NCBI RefSeq assembly: GCF_017876395.1
Contig: NZ_JAGINX010000001.1
Span: 2,480,001 to 2,544,000, forward strand
From: Nesterenkonia lacusekhoensis
Lineage (GTDB): Bacteria > Actinomycetota > Actinomycetes > Actinomycetales > Micrococcaceae
Direction: 5' to 3'
Length of the DNA stretch: 64,000 bases
In this document: positions 1,241 through 44,506 of the stretch, piece by piece
Layout: every line of letters begins with the position of its first letter
How positions within the stretch are numbered: the first letter of the stretch is position 1
Notes under the pieces: generated by a model
What the model saw: only the letters and a program-made list of their open reading frames with translations
The model's database searches: none
Told to the model about the DNA's origin: nothing
Position numbers and translations under genes: made by a program

Positions 1241-1329
1241 GCTGCTCCCCTCGTCGATGGTCACGTCCAATCTGTCGACAAGTATTCCACAGCTGGGGAA
1301 ATCGCCCGAGTGCTGAGGTGTGGGCAGTT

Positions 1330-1338
1330 ATGCACAAG
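1330..1338 (+). promoter_or_regulatory. DnaA box upstream of dnaA
   Basis: TTATGCACA matches the relaxed box TTATNCACA, 90 bp upstream of the dnaA start in the dnaA-rpmH gap. A weaker relative, TATTCCACA, lies at 1283-1291. This suggests DnaA autoregulation and/or part of the origin; the dnaA-dnaN gap, the usual oriC, is outside the window. Confidence 0.6.
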
Positions 1339-1443
1339 GTTCTGCACAGGTGTTAACTAGTGGGTGCCCGGGATGATCGTCGTCTCGGCGACAGGCCCCT
1401 CCGGTCGGTCCGAGTTGACGACTCGCCGTGTTTTCCCCTAGTG

Positions 1444-38427: not shown

Positions 38428-39546
38428 TCAGCTCTCCTTCTGCGTGCCTCCGGGGACCGGCTCGCGGCCTTCGGCCTTGCGGGCCTTGAGCAGCTCGTGG
38501 GTGGGCGGCTGCGGCGTGCCCTCGGGCTCACGGGCCGCGACCTCCTTGCGCAGCACCGGCACGACCTCCTCGCCCAGCATGTCGATCTGTTCCAGGACGG
38601 TCTTCAGCGGCAGGCCCGCATGGTCGATCAGGAAGAGCTGGCGCTGGTAGTCCCCGGCGTACTCGCGGAAGCTCAGCGTGCGCTCGATGACCTGCTCAGG
38701 CGTCCCCACGGTCAGCGGGGTCTGCTCGGTGAAGTCCTCCAGCGAGGGGCCGCCGCCGTAGACCGGGGCGTTGTCGAAGTAGGGCCGGAACTCGCGGACC
38801 GCATCCTGGGAGTTCCGCCGCATGAACACCTGGCCGCCCAGGCCCACGATGGCCTGTTCAGCGGTGCCGTGGCCATAGTGCTCGAAGCGCTCCCGGTAGA
38901 GGTCCACCATGCGTCCGGTGTGCTCCTTGTTCCAGAAGATGTTGTTGTGGAAGAAGCCGTCGCCGTAGTACGCGGCCTGCTCGGCGATCTCCGGAGAGCG
39001 GATGGATCCGTGCCAGACGAAGGGTGCGACGCCGTCCAGCGGGCGCGGAGTGGCGGTGAAGTTCTGCAGCGGGGTCCTGTACCGGCCCTGCCAGTCGACG
39101 CCCTCCTCGCGCCACAGCCGGTGCAGCAGCGCGTAGTTCTCCACGGCCAGCGGGATGCCGGAGCGGATGTCCTTGCCGAACCACGGATAGACCGGACCGG
39201 TGTTGCCGCGTCCCAGCGTCAGGTCCACGCGCCCGCCGGTGAGGTGCTGGACATAGGCGTAGTCCTCCGCGATGCGCACCGGGTCGGTGGTGGTGATCAG
39301 TGTGGTCGCCGTCGAGAGCTGCAGCCGTTCGGTCTGGGCGGCGACGTGAGCCATGAAGATCGGCGGGTTCGCCGGAGCGATGAAGGGCGGGTTGTGGTGC
39401 TGGCCGATCGCGAAGACGTCGAGGCCCACTTCCTCGGCCTTCTTCGCGATGGTCACGGTGGCCTGGATCCGTTCGTGCTCGGAGGGGGTCCGGCCCGTGG
39501 TGGGGTCCGGGGTGACGTCGCCGATGCTGAAGATGCCGAACTGCAT
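38428..39546 (-). CDS. LLM class flavin-dependent oxidoreductase
   Basis: This 372-residue luciferase-like monooxygenase starts MQFGIFSIGDVTPDPTTGRT. It has FAIGQHHNPPFIAPANP, ERLQLSTATTLITTTDPVRI, and ALTLGRG-like VDLTLGRGNTGPVYPWFGKD, the FMN/substrate barrel blocks. Such proteins oxidise small organic compounds with FMNH2; the substrate is unknown. A palindrome with TTCAA...TTGAA arms lies about 40 bp upstream, which suggests control by a repressor encoded elsewhere. Confidence 0.9.
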   Translation of the reverse strand: MQFGIFSIGDVTPDPTTGRTPSEHERIQATVTIAKKAEEVGLDVFAIGQHHNPPFIAPANPPIFMAHVAAQTERLQLSTATTLITTTDPVRIAEDYAYVQHLTGGRVDLTLGRGNTGPVYPWFGKDIRSGIPLAVENYALLHRLWREEGVDWQGRYRTPLQNFTATPRPLDGVAPFVWHGSIRSPEIAEQAAYYGDGFFHNNIFWNKEHTGRMVDLYRERFEHYGHGTAEQAIVGLGGQVFMRRNSQDAVREFRPYFDNAPVYGGGPSLEDFTEQTPLTVGTPEQVIERTLSFREYAGDYQRQLFLIDHAGLPLKTVLEQIDMLGEEVVPVLRKEVAAREPEGTPQPPTHELLKARKAEGREPVPGGTQKES

Positions 39547-40138
39547 GAGGAGCTCCTTGCTCGTGAGCCTGCGATCAGGGGTATTTCAAAATTGAAGTAT
39601 ACCAGGGTGTGGATAACGTGTGGATAAAAGGCGGCGAAAGGTGCCTATACACCCAACTCAGGGCAAACGACAACCCCTCACAGAGGGGGTGCTGTGGGGT
39701 GGGAAAAACCTTCAATTCACAGGTGTGTGGATACATCGTTCCAGGTCAGCGGGATATCGAGGGGTGAAGATCAAGTCTCTCCACAGAGTTGTTCCCATGT
39801 TCTGCACAGAACACGCCGTGCAGTCCACATCTTATCCACAGGGGTTGTGGGTCAGGCTATTGCCCCGGGCGAGAAGTCCCCATATCGTGTGAGGCGTCCC
39901 TCGCGCAGTGAGTGGGTATTGGCCGGCAGAAGTCGGCGTGCATCCGCTCCTGTGAACCCCCGGGGCGGCGCCCAGCCTCCCGGACGAGAACAGGGCCCGC
40001 GGCGTGTGCGGCCCCCTGCTCGAAGGACGGAATGCGCTTCGCGGCCGTCCGGTGAGCAGATGAGCGAGGGCCTGGTACGGATCGTCGGGCTCGGCGGCGA
40101 AGGGAAGGGAATCACGGCCGCGGTCGTGATTCTGCCGC
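39547..40138. other. Gene-free region with DnaA-box cluster
   Basis: No convincing coding sequence is seen in this 592-bp gap between two minus-strand genes. It contains perfect DnaA boxes at 39608-39616 and 39619-39627 (TGTGGATAA, minus orientation, 11 bp apart) and 39832-39840 (TTATCCACA). TGTGGATAC at 39726-39734 is a near match. The box-bearing half is clearly richer in A and T than its surroundings. The other half (39880-40138) is GC-rich and shows nothing recognisable. Possible roles are an auxiliary DnaA-titration site or origin element; see findings. Confidence 0.75.
39581..39602. promoter_or_regulatory. Candidate operator upstream of the LLM oxidoreductase
   Basis: An AT-rich near-palindrome, GTATTTCAAAATTGAAGTAT followed by AC, with TTCAA/TTGAA core arms, 35-56 bp upstream of the start. 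The form suits a MarR-type regulator; no regulator gene is adjacent. Confidence 0.5.
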
Positions 40139-40939
40139 TCAGCCCGGCGATCCGACGCTAACCGGATGGGCCGCCACGAAATCTGCCGTCCGCGTCGGCC
40201 ATGTGTTCAGATCCTCCGGCGTCTCCGCGATCCCCAGCTGCGCCTGCGGCAGCAGCCGCTGCAGCTCCTCCGCCGTCGAGACCGGATGGGCATGGTCATC
40301 CACCCAGGCCAGGATCTGCACGGGAACCTCGACGCCGACCACCTCGTCCTTCGGCGGAAGATCGGTCAGAGCTGCGCCCCGGAAGATCGAGGGCAGAAGC
40401 TCCTGGCTCACCGCCGGCACCCGTTCCCGGGGGCGGTCCGCCAGAGCCGGCGGCGGCAGCACCGAGGCACCGACGCGCACGAAGGCCCCGATGCCGCTGC
40501 CTTCCACCAGATCTGCGGACCTCCGGTAGCTCTCGGTCTGGGAGGCTCGGGTATCCCAGGCGGTGGGCGGGACCAGCAGAGTCAGCGAGGCGAAGCGCTC
40601 GGGATCCTTCAGCGCCGCATAGAGCAGAGTCGCGGTGCCCATCGAAGGGCCCGCGGCGTGGACCTGCTCACCGGGGCAGAGCTCATCGAGCAGGGCGAGC
40701 AGATCATCGGCCAGCCGCGGCCACAGATAGTCCTCCGGGACGGTGCGGCCGGTGGAGGAGCCGTGTCCGCGGGCGTCATAGCGCAGCACCTGGAAGCCGC
40801 TCAGCGCTCCACTCATATCCAGTCCTGCGCGGTGCTCACGTGAGGCGCAGGAGGTCAGACCGTGGAGCTGGACGAAGGTGGGACCGGCCCCGGTGATCTC
40901 ATAGGCGAGTTTCGCCCCGTCGGTCTGGAATATGCCCAC
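40139..40939 (-). CDS. Alpha/beta hydrolase
   Basis: An alpha/beta-hydrolase fold of 266 residues, with oxyanion segment TFVQLHGLTSCASREH, LRYDARGHGSSTG, nucleophile elbow AAGPSMGTATLLYAAL and acid-bearing loop ILAWVDDHAHPVS. The usual C-terminal catalytic histidine motif (GH-x-x) is not evident: the equivalent stretch reads LGIAETPEDLNTWPTRTADF. It may use the histidines of the DDHAHP loop or be inactive. The GTG at 40939 (VGIFQTDGAKLAYEITG) is preferred, since sequence upstream lacks protein character and overlaps the divergent gene. It is divergent from a condensation-domain protein. Confidence 0.82.
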   Translation of the reverse strand: MGIFQTDGAKLAYEITGAGPTFVQLHGLTSCASREHRAGLDMSGALSGFQVLRYDARGHGSSTGRTVPEDYLWPRLADDLLALLDELCPGEQVHAAGPSMGTATLLYAALKDPERFASLTLLVPPTAWDTRASQTESYRRSADLVEGSGIGAFVRVGASVLPPPALADRPRERVPAVSQELLPSIFRGAALTDLPPKDEVVGVEVPVQILAWVDDHAHPVSTAEELQRLLPQAQLGIAETPEDLNTWPTRTADFVAAHPVSVGSPG

Positions 40940-41026
40940 TGTTCCGCTGCCACCTCTTCGGTTCCGCTCGCCGCAGTGCTCTGCGCGGCGCTGATCCCAG
41001 CATCTCGCGGATGTGTAAACCTCAGG

Positions 41027-41039
41027 TTTCCCGCGCGAC
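41027..41039. promoter_or_regulatory. Candidate operator between the hydrolase and condensation genes
   Basis: AAACCTCAGGTTT is a perfect 6-bp inverted repeat about one central base, in the divergent gap and 37 bp from the condensation-gene start. The regulator is unknown. Confidence 0.4.
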
Positions 41040-41075
41040 ACATAGCGTACGCGAAGCCTCCCTAGACTGCGTGAT

Positions 41076-42461
41076 ATGCGGTTGACGAACGTCTCCCAGA
41101 TGCAGGTGCAGCCTGGCCGACTGCACAGCTGCGTGGTGACCGCCACGCCGGAGGACACTGAGCGGCTGCCCCTGTCCTTCGACCAGCGCCGTCACGTCAG
41201 CTTCGGCTCCAGGCCGGGCTCCTGGATGGCAGCGTCCTTCCGACTGCTGCATCCCACCGGGCTGGAGCAGATCGCCGAGGCCTGGGAGCACGTCCTGGGC
41301 CGCCACGGCACGCTGCGCTCGGTCTTCACCAGCGCGGAGGAGCCCGACGGCGGCGAGGACGGGGGACCGGCGGGAGCGCATGGGGACCGGACGGGCGGGC
41401 AGGGCCCGCAGCTGCGGCTCAGCCGTGCCGATCCCACCGGCAGCCGCTGGCAGCGGCTCACCGACGACGCCGCCCCGGCCGAGCTGAGGGCTGCGCTGCG
41501 GGATCTCTTCGACGTGGCCTGCGACCCTTTCGCCCAGCCCGCGCACCGGCTCTGCGTGGTGGAGCCCAGTCCGCAGGATCCTGAGCAGCAGGGCCCGCAG
41601 ATCATCATCGGAGCCGACCATGCCCACGTGGACGCCTGGTCCCTGCTGGTGCTGATCCGGGACCTGACCTCCTGCCTGGAGGACCTCGACGCCGGCCGCC
41701 CCCTGGGCGCCCGTCTGCCGGAGGCCGCCTCCTTCGCGGCCCACACCCGCCAGATGGCCGCCAAGCCCACCGCACCCGAGGAGATCACCGCGCGCTGGCG
41801 GGAGATCCTCGATGCCGGCGGGGGAGCCATGCCCAGCTTCCCGCTGAACCTCGGAGACCTCTCCGTTCCGAGGCAGGAGGTGGTGGAGGTCCGTGACGTC
41901 GTCGATGCCGAGGCGCTGGCCTTCCTCGAATCCCACGCCGCGCAGCAGGGGGTGCGGCTGATCGGCGTCGCCGTCTCTGTGATGACTCGTCTGGCGCGTG
42001 AACTGGCGGATCAGCCGCTGCGCACCGTCTTCCCGGTGCACAGTCGGGAGGATCCGCGCTGGTTCGACTCCGTGGGCTGGTTCATCACCAACTCGGTGCT
42101 GGAGAACGATGACGAGGGCTATGCCGCCAGCTACCGCACGGTCAAAGAGGCCATCCGGTTAGGCTCCTATCCGCTGGGGCCCATCATGGAGCCCTACGGT
42201 GGGATGCCTCAGGAGCCGGGGATGTTCGCGATGTCCTGGCTGGACCACCGCAAGCTGCCGGTCAACGTGGCTGAGGATCTGCAGCCCCAGCACGTCTCCG
42301 CGGTGATCCGCACCGACGGGGTGATGATCTGGTTCGTCATCAACGACTCCGGGATGCACCTGCGCTGCCGCTATCCGGACACCCGACAGGCTCGCCGCGC
42401 TATGCGCACGTGGTTGGCGGGGCTGGTCTATGGCCTGCGGGCCCCGCTGGAGGCGGGATGA
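41076..42461 (+). CDS. Stand-alone condensation-domain protein (acyltransferase-like)
   Basis: This 461-residue protein resembles NRPS condensation domains and PapA-type acyltransferases. The catalytic HxxxD is in IIIGADHAHVDAWSLLVLI, a variant of HHxxxDG with Ala in place of the last Gly. An N-terminal block is LPLSFDQRRHVSFGSRPGSW. The C-terminal half has RTVFPVHSREDPRWFDSVGW and IGWFxNxVP-like WFITNSVL, as expected for the second lobe. No adenylation or carrier domain is nearby. It would therefore act on a free or lipid acceptor, perhaps assembling an acylated product with the divergent hydrolase; that is inference. Confidence 0.75.
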   Translation: MRLTNVSQMQVQPGRLHSCVVTATPEDTERLPLSFDQRRHVSFGSRPGSWMAASFRLLHPTGLEQIAEAWEHVLGRHGTLRSVFTSAEEPDGGEDGGPAGAHGDRTGGQGPQLRLSRADPTGSRWQRLTDDAAPAELRAALRDLFDVACDPFAQPAHRLCVVEPSPQDPEQQGPQIIIGADHAHVDAWSLLVLIRDLTSCLEDLDAGRPLGARLPEAASFAAHTRQMAAKPTAPEEITARWREILDAGGGAMPSFPLNLGDLSVPRQEVVEVRDVVDAEALAFLESHAAQQGVRLIGVAVSVMTRLARELADQPLRTVFPVHSREDPRWFDSVGWFITNSVLENDDEGYAASYRTVKEAIRLGSYPLGPIMEPYGGMPQEPGMFAMSWLDHRKLPVNVAEDLQPQHVSAVIRTDGVMIWFVINDSGMHLRCRYPDTRQARRAMRTWLAGLVYGLRAPLEAG

Positions 42462-42528: not shown

Positions 42529-43080
42529 TCAGTCCAGCCCGAGCTCCGACTTGGAGTAGGCGAAGAGATAGGGCACGCCGGCCTCCTGCTCGACGCGCTC
42601 CTTGGCACCGGTGTCCCGGTCCACCAGCACGGCCACGGCCTGGACCTCGCCGCCGGCCTTGCGCACGCCTTCCACGGCGGTCAGCGCAGAGCCACCGGTG
42701 GTGGAGGTGTCCTCGAGGATGACCACTGTGCGGCCCTCCACCGAGGGGCCCTCGACCTGGCGCTGCATGCCGTAGTCCTTCTGCGCCTTGCGCACCACGA
42801 AGGTGTCCACCAGGCGGCCCTGGCCCGCGGTGTGGTGCATGATCGCCGCACCGACGGGATCTGCGCCCATGGTCAGCCCGCCGGTGGCCTCAAAGCTGAC
42901 GCCGGCCTCGTCGAGCATCTCGGTCATCACAGCGCCCACCAGGGGAGCGGCCTCATGGTGCAGCGTGATGCGGCGCAGGTCCACGTAGTAGTCGGCTTCC
43001 TCTCCCGAGGAGAGAGTGACCTGTCCCCGGACGACGGCGAGCTCGGTGATCAGTTCCTGCAGGCGCGTGCGATGACTCAT
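42529..43080 (-). CDS. pyrE: Orotate phosphoribosyltransferase
   Basis: PyrE makes orotidine 5'-phosphate from orotate and PRPP in pyrimidine synthesis. The PRPP-binding loop is VVILEDTSTTGGSALTAVEG, LSSGEEADYYVDLRRITLHH is the orotate-site block, and FVVRKAQKDYGMQRQVEG is the flexible loop. The ATG at 43080 gives the usual 183 residues. It is separated from the rest of the pyrimidine genes and converges on the condensation gene. Confidence 0.95.
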   Translation of the reverse strand: MSHRTRLQELITELAVVRGQVTLSSGEEADYYVDLRRITLHHEAAPLVGAVMTEMLDEAGVSFEATGGLTMGADPVGAAIMHHTAGQGRLVDTFVVRKAQKDYGMQRQVEGPSVEGRTVVILEDTSTTGGSALTAVEGVRKAGGEVQAVAVLVDRDTGAKERVEQEAGVPYLFAYSKSELGLD

Positions 43081-43144
43081 GGGCGCCATCCTACTCATCC
43101 ACAGGGGCGCTCGAGCACTCGGCTCCACCCGGTATTGTGGAACG

Positions 43145-44506
43145 GTGAGTTCCGACGTCTATGACACCAGTGCGCCGGCCGGGGCGGAATCCCGCACCCC
43201 GCCGCAGGACATGGCCGCCGAGCAGTCCGTGCTGGGCGGCATGATGCTCTCCAAGGACGCCATCGCCGACGTCGTCGAGATCGTCCGCGGCCCCGACTTC
43301 TACCGGCCTGCCCACGAGATCATCTATGACGCCATCGTGGACCTCTACGGCCGCGGAGAGCCGGCCGACGTCGTCACGATCTCCGACCACCTGACCAAAC
43401 GTCAGGAGCTGCAGCGGATCGGCGGCCCGGCCTATCTGCACAACCTGGCACAGTCGGTCCCGACGGCGGCCAACGCCTCCTTCTACGCCGAGATCGTGCG
43501 GGAGCGCGCCATCCTGCGCCGCCTGGTGGAGGCCGGCACCAAGATCGTCCAATTGGGCCACGGCGCCGACGGCGAGGTCGACGCCATCGTCAATGAGGCC
43601 CAGTCGGAGATCTACAACGTCGCGGAGAACCGGCAGTCGGCCGACTACGTCTCCCTGGGTGAGGTACTGGTCCCCACGATCGATGAGATCGAGACCAACG
43701 CCTCCCACGACGGCGGCCTGACCGGCATCCCCACCGGCTTCCGGGAGCTCGATGAGCTCACCCACGGCTTCAGCGGCGGTCAGATGATCATCGTCGCGGC
43801 CCGTCCCGCGATGGGTAAATCCACCCTCGCTCTGGACTTCGCCCGCTCGGCCGCGGTGAACAACGGGATGACCGCAGCCTTCTTCTCCCTGGAGATGGGG
43901 CGCAATGAGATTGCGATGCGTCTGCTCTCCGCGGAGGCGCGCATCCAGTTCCAGGACCTGCGCAAGGGCGACATCCGGGATGAGGACTGGGACAAGATGT
44001 CCTTGGCGGTGGACCGGCTGAACGAGGTGCCGCTGTTCATCGATGACTCCCCGAACATGTCCCTGATGGAGATCCGCGCGAAGTGCCGCCGCCTCAAGCA
44101 GCGGAACAACCTGAAGCTGATCGTGCTGGACTACCTGCAGCTGCTCTCCTCCGGAAAGCGCGTGGAGTCCCGCCAGCAGGAGGTCTCGGAGTTCTCCCGA
44201 ACGCTGAAGCTGCTGGCCAAGGAGCTCGACGTCCCGATCATCGCGCTCTCGCAGCTGAACCGCGGTTCCGAGCAGCGCACCGATAAGCGTCCTCAGGTCT
44301 CCGACCTGCGTGAGTCCGGCTCCATCGAGCAGGACGCCGATATGGTCCTGCTGCTGCACCGCGATGAGGTCTATGACAAGGAGTCCCCGCGCGCCGGTGA
44401 GGCCGACATCATCGTGGCGAAGAACCGTGCCGGTCCGACGCGAGACATCGTCGTCGCCTTCCAGGGCCATTACGCCCGCTTCCAGGACATGGCTCAGGAC
44501 ATCTGA
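43145..44506 (+). CDS. dnaB: Replicative DNA helicase DnaB
   Basis: DnaB is the hexameric 5'-3' helicase of the replisome. The N-terminal domain starts PPQDMAAEQSVLGGMMLSKD. The RecA-like core begins TGIPTGFRELDELTHGFSGG with Walker A RPAMGKSTLALDFA (near residue 220), Walker B LKLIVLDYLQLLSS, and PIIALSQLNRGSEQRTDKRP followed by SDLRESGSIEQDADMVLLLH. The GTG at 43145 (VSSDVYD) yields 453 residues without an intein, although actinobacterial dnaB often has one. It is found downstream of rplI in many actinobacteria; here about 6 kb of other genes intervene. Confidence 0.96.
   Translation: MSSDVYDTSAPAGAESRTPPQDMAAEQSVLGGMMLSKDAIADVVEIVRGPDFYRPAHEIIYDAIVDLYGRGEPADVVTISDHLTKRQELQRIGGPAYLHNLAQSVPTAANASFYAEIVRERAILRRLVEAGTKIVQLGHGADGEVDAIVNEAQSEIYNVAENRQSADYVSLGEVLVPTIDEIETNASHDGGLTGIPTGFRELDELTHGFSGGQMIIVAARPAMGKSTLALDFARSAAVNNGMTAAFFSLEMGRNEIAMRLLSAEARIQFQDLRKGDIRDEDWDKMSLAVDRLNEVPLFIDDSPNMSLMEIRAKCRRLKQRNNLKLIVLDYLQLLSSGKRVESRQQEVSEFSRTLKLLAKELDVPIIALSQLNRGSEQRTDKRPQVSDLRESGSIEQDADMVLLLHRDEVYDKESPRAGEADIIVAKNRAGPTRDIVVAFQGHYARFQDMAQDI

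Follow-up and report, generated by a model that had tools for sequence, protein, structure and literature searches.

Among the described systems that resemble the locus reported here are those of mycobacteria, where an in vitro pull-down with DnaA of M. tuberculosis yielded five highly enriched regions, one of them (Rv0057) upstream of dnaB, and where ChIP-seq in M. smegmatis recovered homologues of the same five regions (PMC7738170). DnaA boxes were also predicted upstream of dnaB in Caulobacter, where dnaB belongs to the DnaA regulon (PMC8203912), and blocks of imperfect DnaA sites occur at least 94 kb from dnaA in Kineococcus (PMC2587704). DnaA-box clusters outside oriC are further documented in B. 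subtilis and S. coelicolor, those of B. subtilis limiting initiation, and E. coli datA depends on IHF and stimulates the hydrolysis of ATP bound to DnaA (both from PMC5742627). The E. coli loci DARS1 and DARS2 are described as regenerating ATP-DnaA, DARS2 with the use of IHF and Fis. Both consist of few DnaA boxes in a fixed arrangement. Streptomyces DnaA-box clusters were reportedly treated by Smulczyk-Krawczyszyn et al. in 2006. To our knowledge, how actinobacteria restrain DnaA between replication rounds is still largely open.

The locus described here belongs to Nesterenkonia lacusekhoensis and was found in a 64,000-nucleotide stretch of contig NZ_JAGINX010000001.1 (positions 2,480,001 to 2,544,000), hereafter called the window, in whose coordinates features are given. 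Gene order in the window is rpsF, rplI (ribosomal protein L9, 36602-37054, plus strand), a glutaminase gene, a luciferase-like monooxygenase gene (38428-39546, minus strand), the element, an alpha/beta hydrolase gene (40139-41158, minus strand), a condensation-domain gene (41076-42461, plus strand) and the replicative helicase gene dnaB (43079-44506, plus strand), with dnaA at the left end. The boxes occupy the gap between the monooxygenase and hydrolase genes. Box A (39608-39616) and box B (39619-39627), 11 bp apart, are exact copies of TTATCCACA on the minus strand; box C (39777-39785, plus strand, here CTCTCCACA) lies 158 bp from B, and box D (39832-39840, plus strand, again exact TTATCCACA) 55 bp from C. 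A near match, GTATCCACA (39726-39734, minus strand), falls outside these four fixed positions, and a weak box, AGTCCACA (39822-39829, plus strand), stands between C and D together with the most conserved block, TGCACAGAACACGCCG (39803-39818, plus strand), which contains ACACGCCG at 39811-39818. The initial annotation had reported three perfect boxes, two of them in tandem 11 bp apart, and one near match; these were recovered at 39608, 39619, 39832 and 39726, and box C, overlooked in that sequence-only reading, became visible only through alignment.

This grouping was beyond chance. The three exact boxes of the window all fall within 233 bp, a span holding four boxes at one mismatch or fewer, and 300 first-order Markov simulations of the window produced no 233-bp span with more than two boxes at that threshold or more than one exact box. 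Genome-wide, 16 exact boxes were counted against 6 for the reversed-pattern control, and exact boxes 300 bp or less apart were restricted to this group, a pair near dnaA-dnaN and, roughly 10 kb away on the far side of dnaA, a palindromic pair. The surroundings were largely as first described. The stretch was indeed unusually AT-rich (GC content 0.524 for 39608-39840 against 0.671 for the window, a value as low being found in 0.1% of 233-bp windows) and appeared gene-free, the two open reading frames crossing it having no match in Pfam, on which ground a coding explanation was discarded; its distance to dnaA, first given as about 38 kb, was 39.5 kb when taken to the DnaA domain of that gene. 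The statement that no replication gene is adjacent proved true only in a narrow sense, for the immediate neighbours in the window: the element does not lie directly upstream of dnaB here, but dnaB starts 3.2 kb away with genes between.

The possibility that such a cluster would be absent from relatives, which was to have told against it, was not borne out: an element of about 230 bp with fixed box geometry was present in 27 of 29 Nesterenkonia genomes (this one and 28 congeners), the two remaining loci (G021 and G028) lying on short contigs, 5.3 and 7.2 kb long, in which no boxes were seen. In the common design, A and B are reverse and 11 bp apart, C stands 156-168 bp from B (156-158 bp in 22 of 25 loci) and D 54-55 bp further on, both C and D being forward. 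This four-box arrangement scored 30-34 of 36 letters in 25 of the 29 loci, the present one included. Two variants, placed in the alignment by hand, aligned along the element, one with an A-B spacing of 12 bp (G013) and one with fewer near-exact boxes (G012). Tandem boxes with at most two mismatches were found at 19 sites in 17 of 30 genus genomes (own included) and were absent from the other 13, the reversed-pattern control giving one site; 18 of the 19 were at most about 1.35 kb distant from the same monooxygenase gene. The most constant block was not a DnaA box: ACACGCCG, which adjoins TGCACA, was invariant in all 25 sequences (own and 24 congeners). Mean top-base frequency in 27 sequences was 0.25-0.39 in the 100 bp to the left, 0.44-0.91 inside the element and 0.41 just past the hairpin described below, the conserved zone being limited to about 39600-39950. 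CAGGTCAG (39742-39749) was likewise well conserved within the genus. Among the fetched entries, L286 is a 20-base placeholder and entered none of the comparisons.

A group of DnaA boxes within an AT-rich gap, here close to dnaB, would also suit an oriC, and the initial annotation had considered a relocated or auxiliary origin, naming a box count between dnaA and dnaN and GC skew as checks. Boxes were found in the dnaA-dnaN region of all 27 loci, as a pair 180-182 bp apart in 24 of them (the region was located here by its own coordinates and in 26 congeners by applying that offset). Summed across 344 kb, G-C reached its minimum at contig position 2472001, some 7 kb past the dnaA-dnaN gap and some 48 kb away from the element, and GC skew was -0.016 to the left of the gap, +0.027 from the gap to the element and +0.008 beyond the element. 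G089 and G185 carry the element at distances of 240 and 260 kb from dnaA; in both, mean skew was below zero to either side of the element and rose above zero only beyond dnaA. The sign change thus lay near dnaA and away from the element in three genomes, with weak skews, sampled stretches and single stretches that vary in sign. The distance from element to dnaA varied from 21 to 260 kb (median 57.5 kb) in family genomes outside the genus, as computed for 35 of 54 genomes with dnaA located. Because of the skew and of the boxes in the dnaA-dnaN gap, oriC is probably located at dnaA, and on the same two grounds we rejected a relocated or auxiliary origin at the element as extremely improbable.

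Models of the element were searched beyond the genus. R1, a sequence-only model running from box C to the promoter, matched 224 of 295 family genomes in 26 of 32 genera (71 genomes had no match), with a single match in nearly all genomes listed. Among the R1 loci used from outside the genus, dnaB was directly downstream in 18 of 19, the DnaB match beginning 116-437 bp after the R1 start in 18 and 2.9 kb on in one. Many of these other-genus matches ended near model position 75-120; some included a promoter-like pair, e.g. positions 6-133 of 134 in G197. R3, a core model derived from 6 Nesterenkonia loci and 19 loci of other family members, matched 217 of 394 class genomes (90 of 137 genera) and left 177 without match, and dnaB was directly downstream in 27 of the 28 best non-genus R3 loci checked (three of them from the same family), the exception being a 1.8-kb piece. 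Because DnaA boxes form part of R1 and R3 and both models score nothing but sequence, the weaker class matches may be other box clusters. R3 scores in named genomes were 74 bits in Citricoccus, 34 in Streptomyces tuirus, 26 in S. coeruleorubidus, 26 in Yaniella, 18.5 in Nocardia and 15 in one Tessaracoccus; the present genome reached 72 bits, its own sequence being among those from which R3 was built. R3 had no match in two Brevibacterium, Rothia and another Tessaracoccus, and Rothia and the two Brevibacterium showed no near-exact box upstream of dnaB (12 of 16 named dnaB loci were examined, two of the 12 being unreadable with a split DnaB match). The Nesterenkonia element carries the conserved core between boxes C and D that marks the dnaB-upstream loci. 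ACACGCCG itself is widely kept in the family but is missing from the class alignment, whose common part consists of boxes and spacing. Several actinobacteria (L335, L338-L344) showed split or partial DnaB matches within long open frames of 749-1373 aa, probably inteins in DnaB. A second DnaB homologue (39% identity) was recorded in the present genome on a small contig, C2 (34601-35884), perhaps a plasmid or prophage.

From these neighbourhoods we infer that the element ancestrally occupied the gap upstream of dnaB, after rplI, and judging by its sequence the Nesterenkonia element is a displaced homologue of this dnaB-upstream DnaA element. In the 26 genomes with element and dnaB on one contig (this one and 25 congeners, leaving out G001 with dnaB on another contig, G010, from which no orthologous locus was retrieved, and the short contigs of G021 and G028), the two were 156-5252 bp apart, 1.6-5.3 kb in 24 genomes and less than 600 bp in only two, and the element was inverted relative to dnaB in six. 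Intervening genes would have parted the element from dnaB, as would an inversion in some species, with geometry, promoter-like pair and hairpin kept. In most of these genomes a plain role as dnaB promoter is hardly possible for the element, promoter-like pair and hairpin, which are nevertheless retained. This retention speaks most strongly for an independent function; a residual, weaker link to dnaB is possible given that all 26 elements lie within about 5.3 kb of it. The loss of dnaB as a neighbour would suit a decaying relic of the dnaB promoter, free of selection, but box geometry, the invariant ACACGCCG and compensatory changes persist throughout the genus whereas the flanks do not, which makes such a relic very improbable.

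The monooxygenase gene is the present neighbour of the boxes (its closest named relative among the matches listed is from N. cremea, 94% identical). A minus-strand promoter-like pair, found in a consensus scan, overlaps box B, as would be expected if the boxes regulated this gene. In several congeners, however, the gene lies more than 1 kb away behind another gene, and outside the genus dnaB follows the element in the loci checked. The four-box design occurred in only three of 80 loci around monooxygenase relatives, all of them Nesterenkonia; elsewhere the element tracks dnaB. Given that the position of this gene with respect to the element is not constant, an operator for the monooxygenase was discarded, and we regard it as barely conceivable.

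All 25 aligned sequences displayed TATTGC (TGTTGC in one) to the right of box D, followed 17-18 nt on by TANNGT, with TCCC soon after in 24 of them. In the window, a promoter-like -35 (TTGCCC, 39860-39865, plus strand) and -10 (TATCGT, 39883-39888, plus strand), 17 nt apart, were named by inspection. They precede a hairpin (39901-39954, plus strand), probably of RNA, whose internal loop is 4x4 (ATTG / GYGC) and in which compensatory changes occur. The hairpin motif followed the element in all 27 genus genomes, and the two-stem fold with this loop was that of lowest energy in 26 of the 27, L187 folding otherwise. Among 15 sequences, 8 of 14 pairs had changes on both sides, 94.8% of cells paired, and the covariation score reached 0.469, compared with 0.242 for shuffles and no more than 0.143 for slid controls, the structure having been derived from the same alignment used to score it; further pair types were not above shuffles (19 against 17.1, with 88 of 500 as high). 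One pair was G-U in 11 of the 15 and A-U in four, a pattern that points to folding of the plus strand, as RNA. No match was obtained in Rfam at the gathering score or at E up to 5, and identity with a known structured RNA was set aside on that account. Two overlapping terminator-like stems were also seen inside the element on the minus strand (39673-39690; 2 against 0.3 expected in shuffles).

A hairpin model, R2, built from 15 of the 27 sequences, gave one match each in 34 of 295 family genomes, which represent 4 of 32 genera; 23 of these genomes are Nesterenkonia, none of those listed going unmatched, and 11 are others. In these other genera, dnaB followed on the same strand in all seven loci checked (of 11). 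The R2 hairpin precedes dnaB in L372 of G030, yet that genome has no R1 match, so the hairpin may occur without a recognisable box array.

These features nourish the main rival explanation, a DnaA-controlled promoter that would drive dnaB in most relatives and, in Nesterenkonia, a short hairpin RNA or the distant dnaB; we consider it possible, if doubtful. The promoter-like pair is conserved in the aligned sequences and lies inside some other-genus R1 matches, the hairpin is genus-wide with pairs changed on both sides, and in the seven loci checked outside the genus it stands before dnaB on the same strand. It is also conceivable, at a similarly tentative level, that boxes beside the -35 would let DnaA repress or activate the transcript. 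Against this, 11 of the 13 congener loci that were inspected have the opposite-strand hydrolase as the next gene after the hairpin, the six genomes with an inverted element would have a transcript heading away from dnaB, the array begins about 250 bp upstream of the -35 and so exceeds the needs of a simple operator, and the consensus scan did not list the pair. As promoter-like pair and hairpin persist, the RNA rather than the holding of DnaA could be what is selected; both readings may also apply together.

Compared with the described systems, the Nesterenkonia element shares with the mycobacterial Rv0057 site its relative place before dnaB, from which it has become detached, and neither box geometry nor a hairpin is described for that site in the accessible text (PMC7738170). 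The likeness concerns position, the Nocardia locus matching R3 weakly, at the score given above. With the Streptomyces clusters it shares an extra-oriC location, together with the R3 matches found upstream of dnaB in the two named Streptomyces. The B. subtilis clusters resemble it as extra-oriC groups of DnaA boxes (PMC5742627). Like datA, the element is a DnaA-box cluster outside oriC, and like DARS1 and DARS2 it has few DnaA boxes in a fixed arrangement. A literature search, to which most subscription papers were closed, found no description of the four-box geometry, the hairpin or the detachment.

Other DnaA-box sites accompany the element. A palindrome of two exact boxes, TTATCCACAGTGTGGATAA, lies with near matches outside the window (contig 2469322-2469447), about 10 kb from dnaA on its other side, between tRNA-Ala and a rhomboid gene. 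Similar palindromes (17-18 of 18 letters) were present in 9 of 14 congener stretches, the other five of which may not cover the place. In where it lies and how it is built, it resembles Rv0010c-Rv0011c, a palindromic site of mycobacteria (PMC7738170). Between dnaA and rpmH, at window positions 1320-1350, TTATGCACA (1328) and a TTCTGCACA site were also observed, in the same position as the mycobacterial rpmH-dnaA DnaA site. Judged solely by position and form, four of the five mycobacterial DnaA sites may therefore have a counterpart in this lineage.

Among the three alternatives raised by the initial annotation, the origin found no support, and the other two are compatible with the data: a DnaA-regulated promoter, to which the conserved promoter-like pair and hairpin beside box D and the dnaB-upstream loci outside the genus would point, and a titration or modulation site, which retention after separation from dnaB would favour. 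With modest confidence, we prefer to see a conserved DnaA-binding element of the dnaB upstream region in many actinomycetes that was cut off from dnaB yet kept in Nesterenkonia, where it would hold or modulate DnaA. It would now be at least partly independent of dnaB, probably acting on DnaA in this way near the origin, and its near-unchanged upkeep after separation suggests that it contributes in its own right to the control of DNA replication.

By analogy with the mycobacterial dnaB upstream region, DnaA would bind the element in Nesterenkonia; an effect on initiation and transcription of the hairpin are likewise predicted. DnaA would most likely assemble on the ordered strong and weak boxes. 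Lying near oriC, the element would be duplicated early and so add DnaA-binding capacity, which would lower free active DnaA after initiation and limit re-initiation; alternatively, it might alter the nucleotide state of DnaA. The same DnaA complex may gate the adjacent short transcript.

A wider reading, speculative and on balance rather unlikely, would make the element a class-wide replication-control module of actinomycetes with a role in initiation timing independent of dnaB, the hairpin RNA perhaps itself acting on replication. Its independence would follow from the Nesterenkonia element having been separated, even inverted, and yet conserved. Equally speculative are the parts of this module: an ordered DnaA-box array with a promoter, a structured RNA in some genera and a constant non-box motif in the family (ACACGCCG in Nesterenkonia).

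For the preferred reading, a DnaA-holding or modulating element, Nesterenkonia represents a natural uncoupling from dnaB that allows a DnaA modulator to be tested against a mere dnaB operator. Conserved family-wide and still recognisable at class level, the element yields searchable models, a covarying hairpin without a match in Rfam and a constant motif for a partner search.
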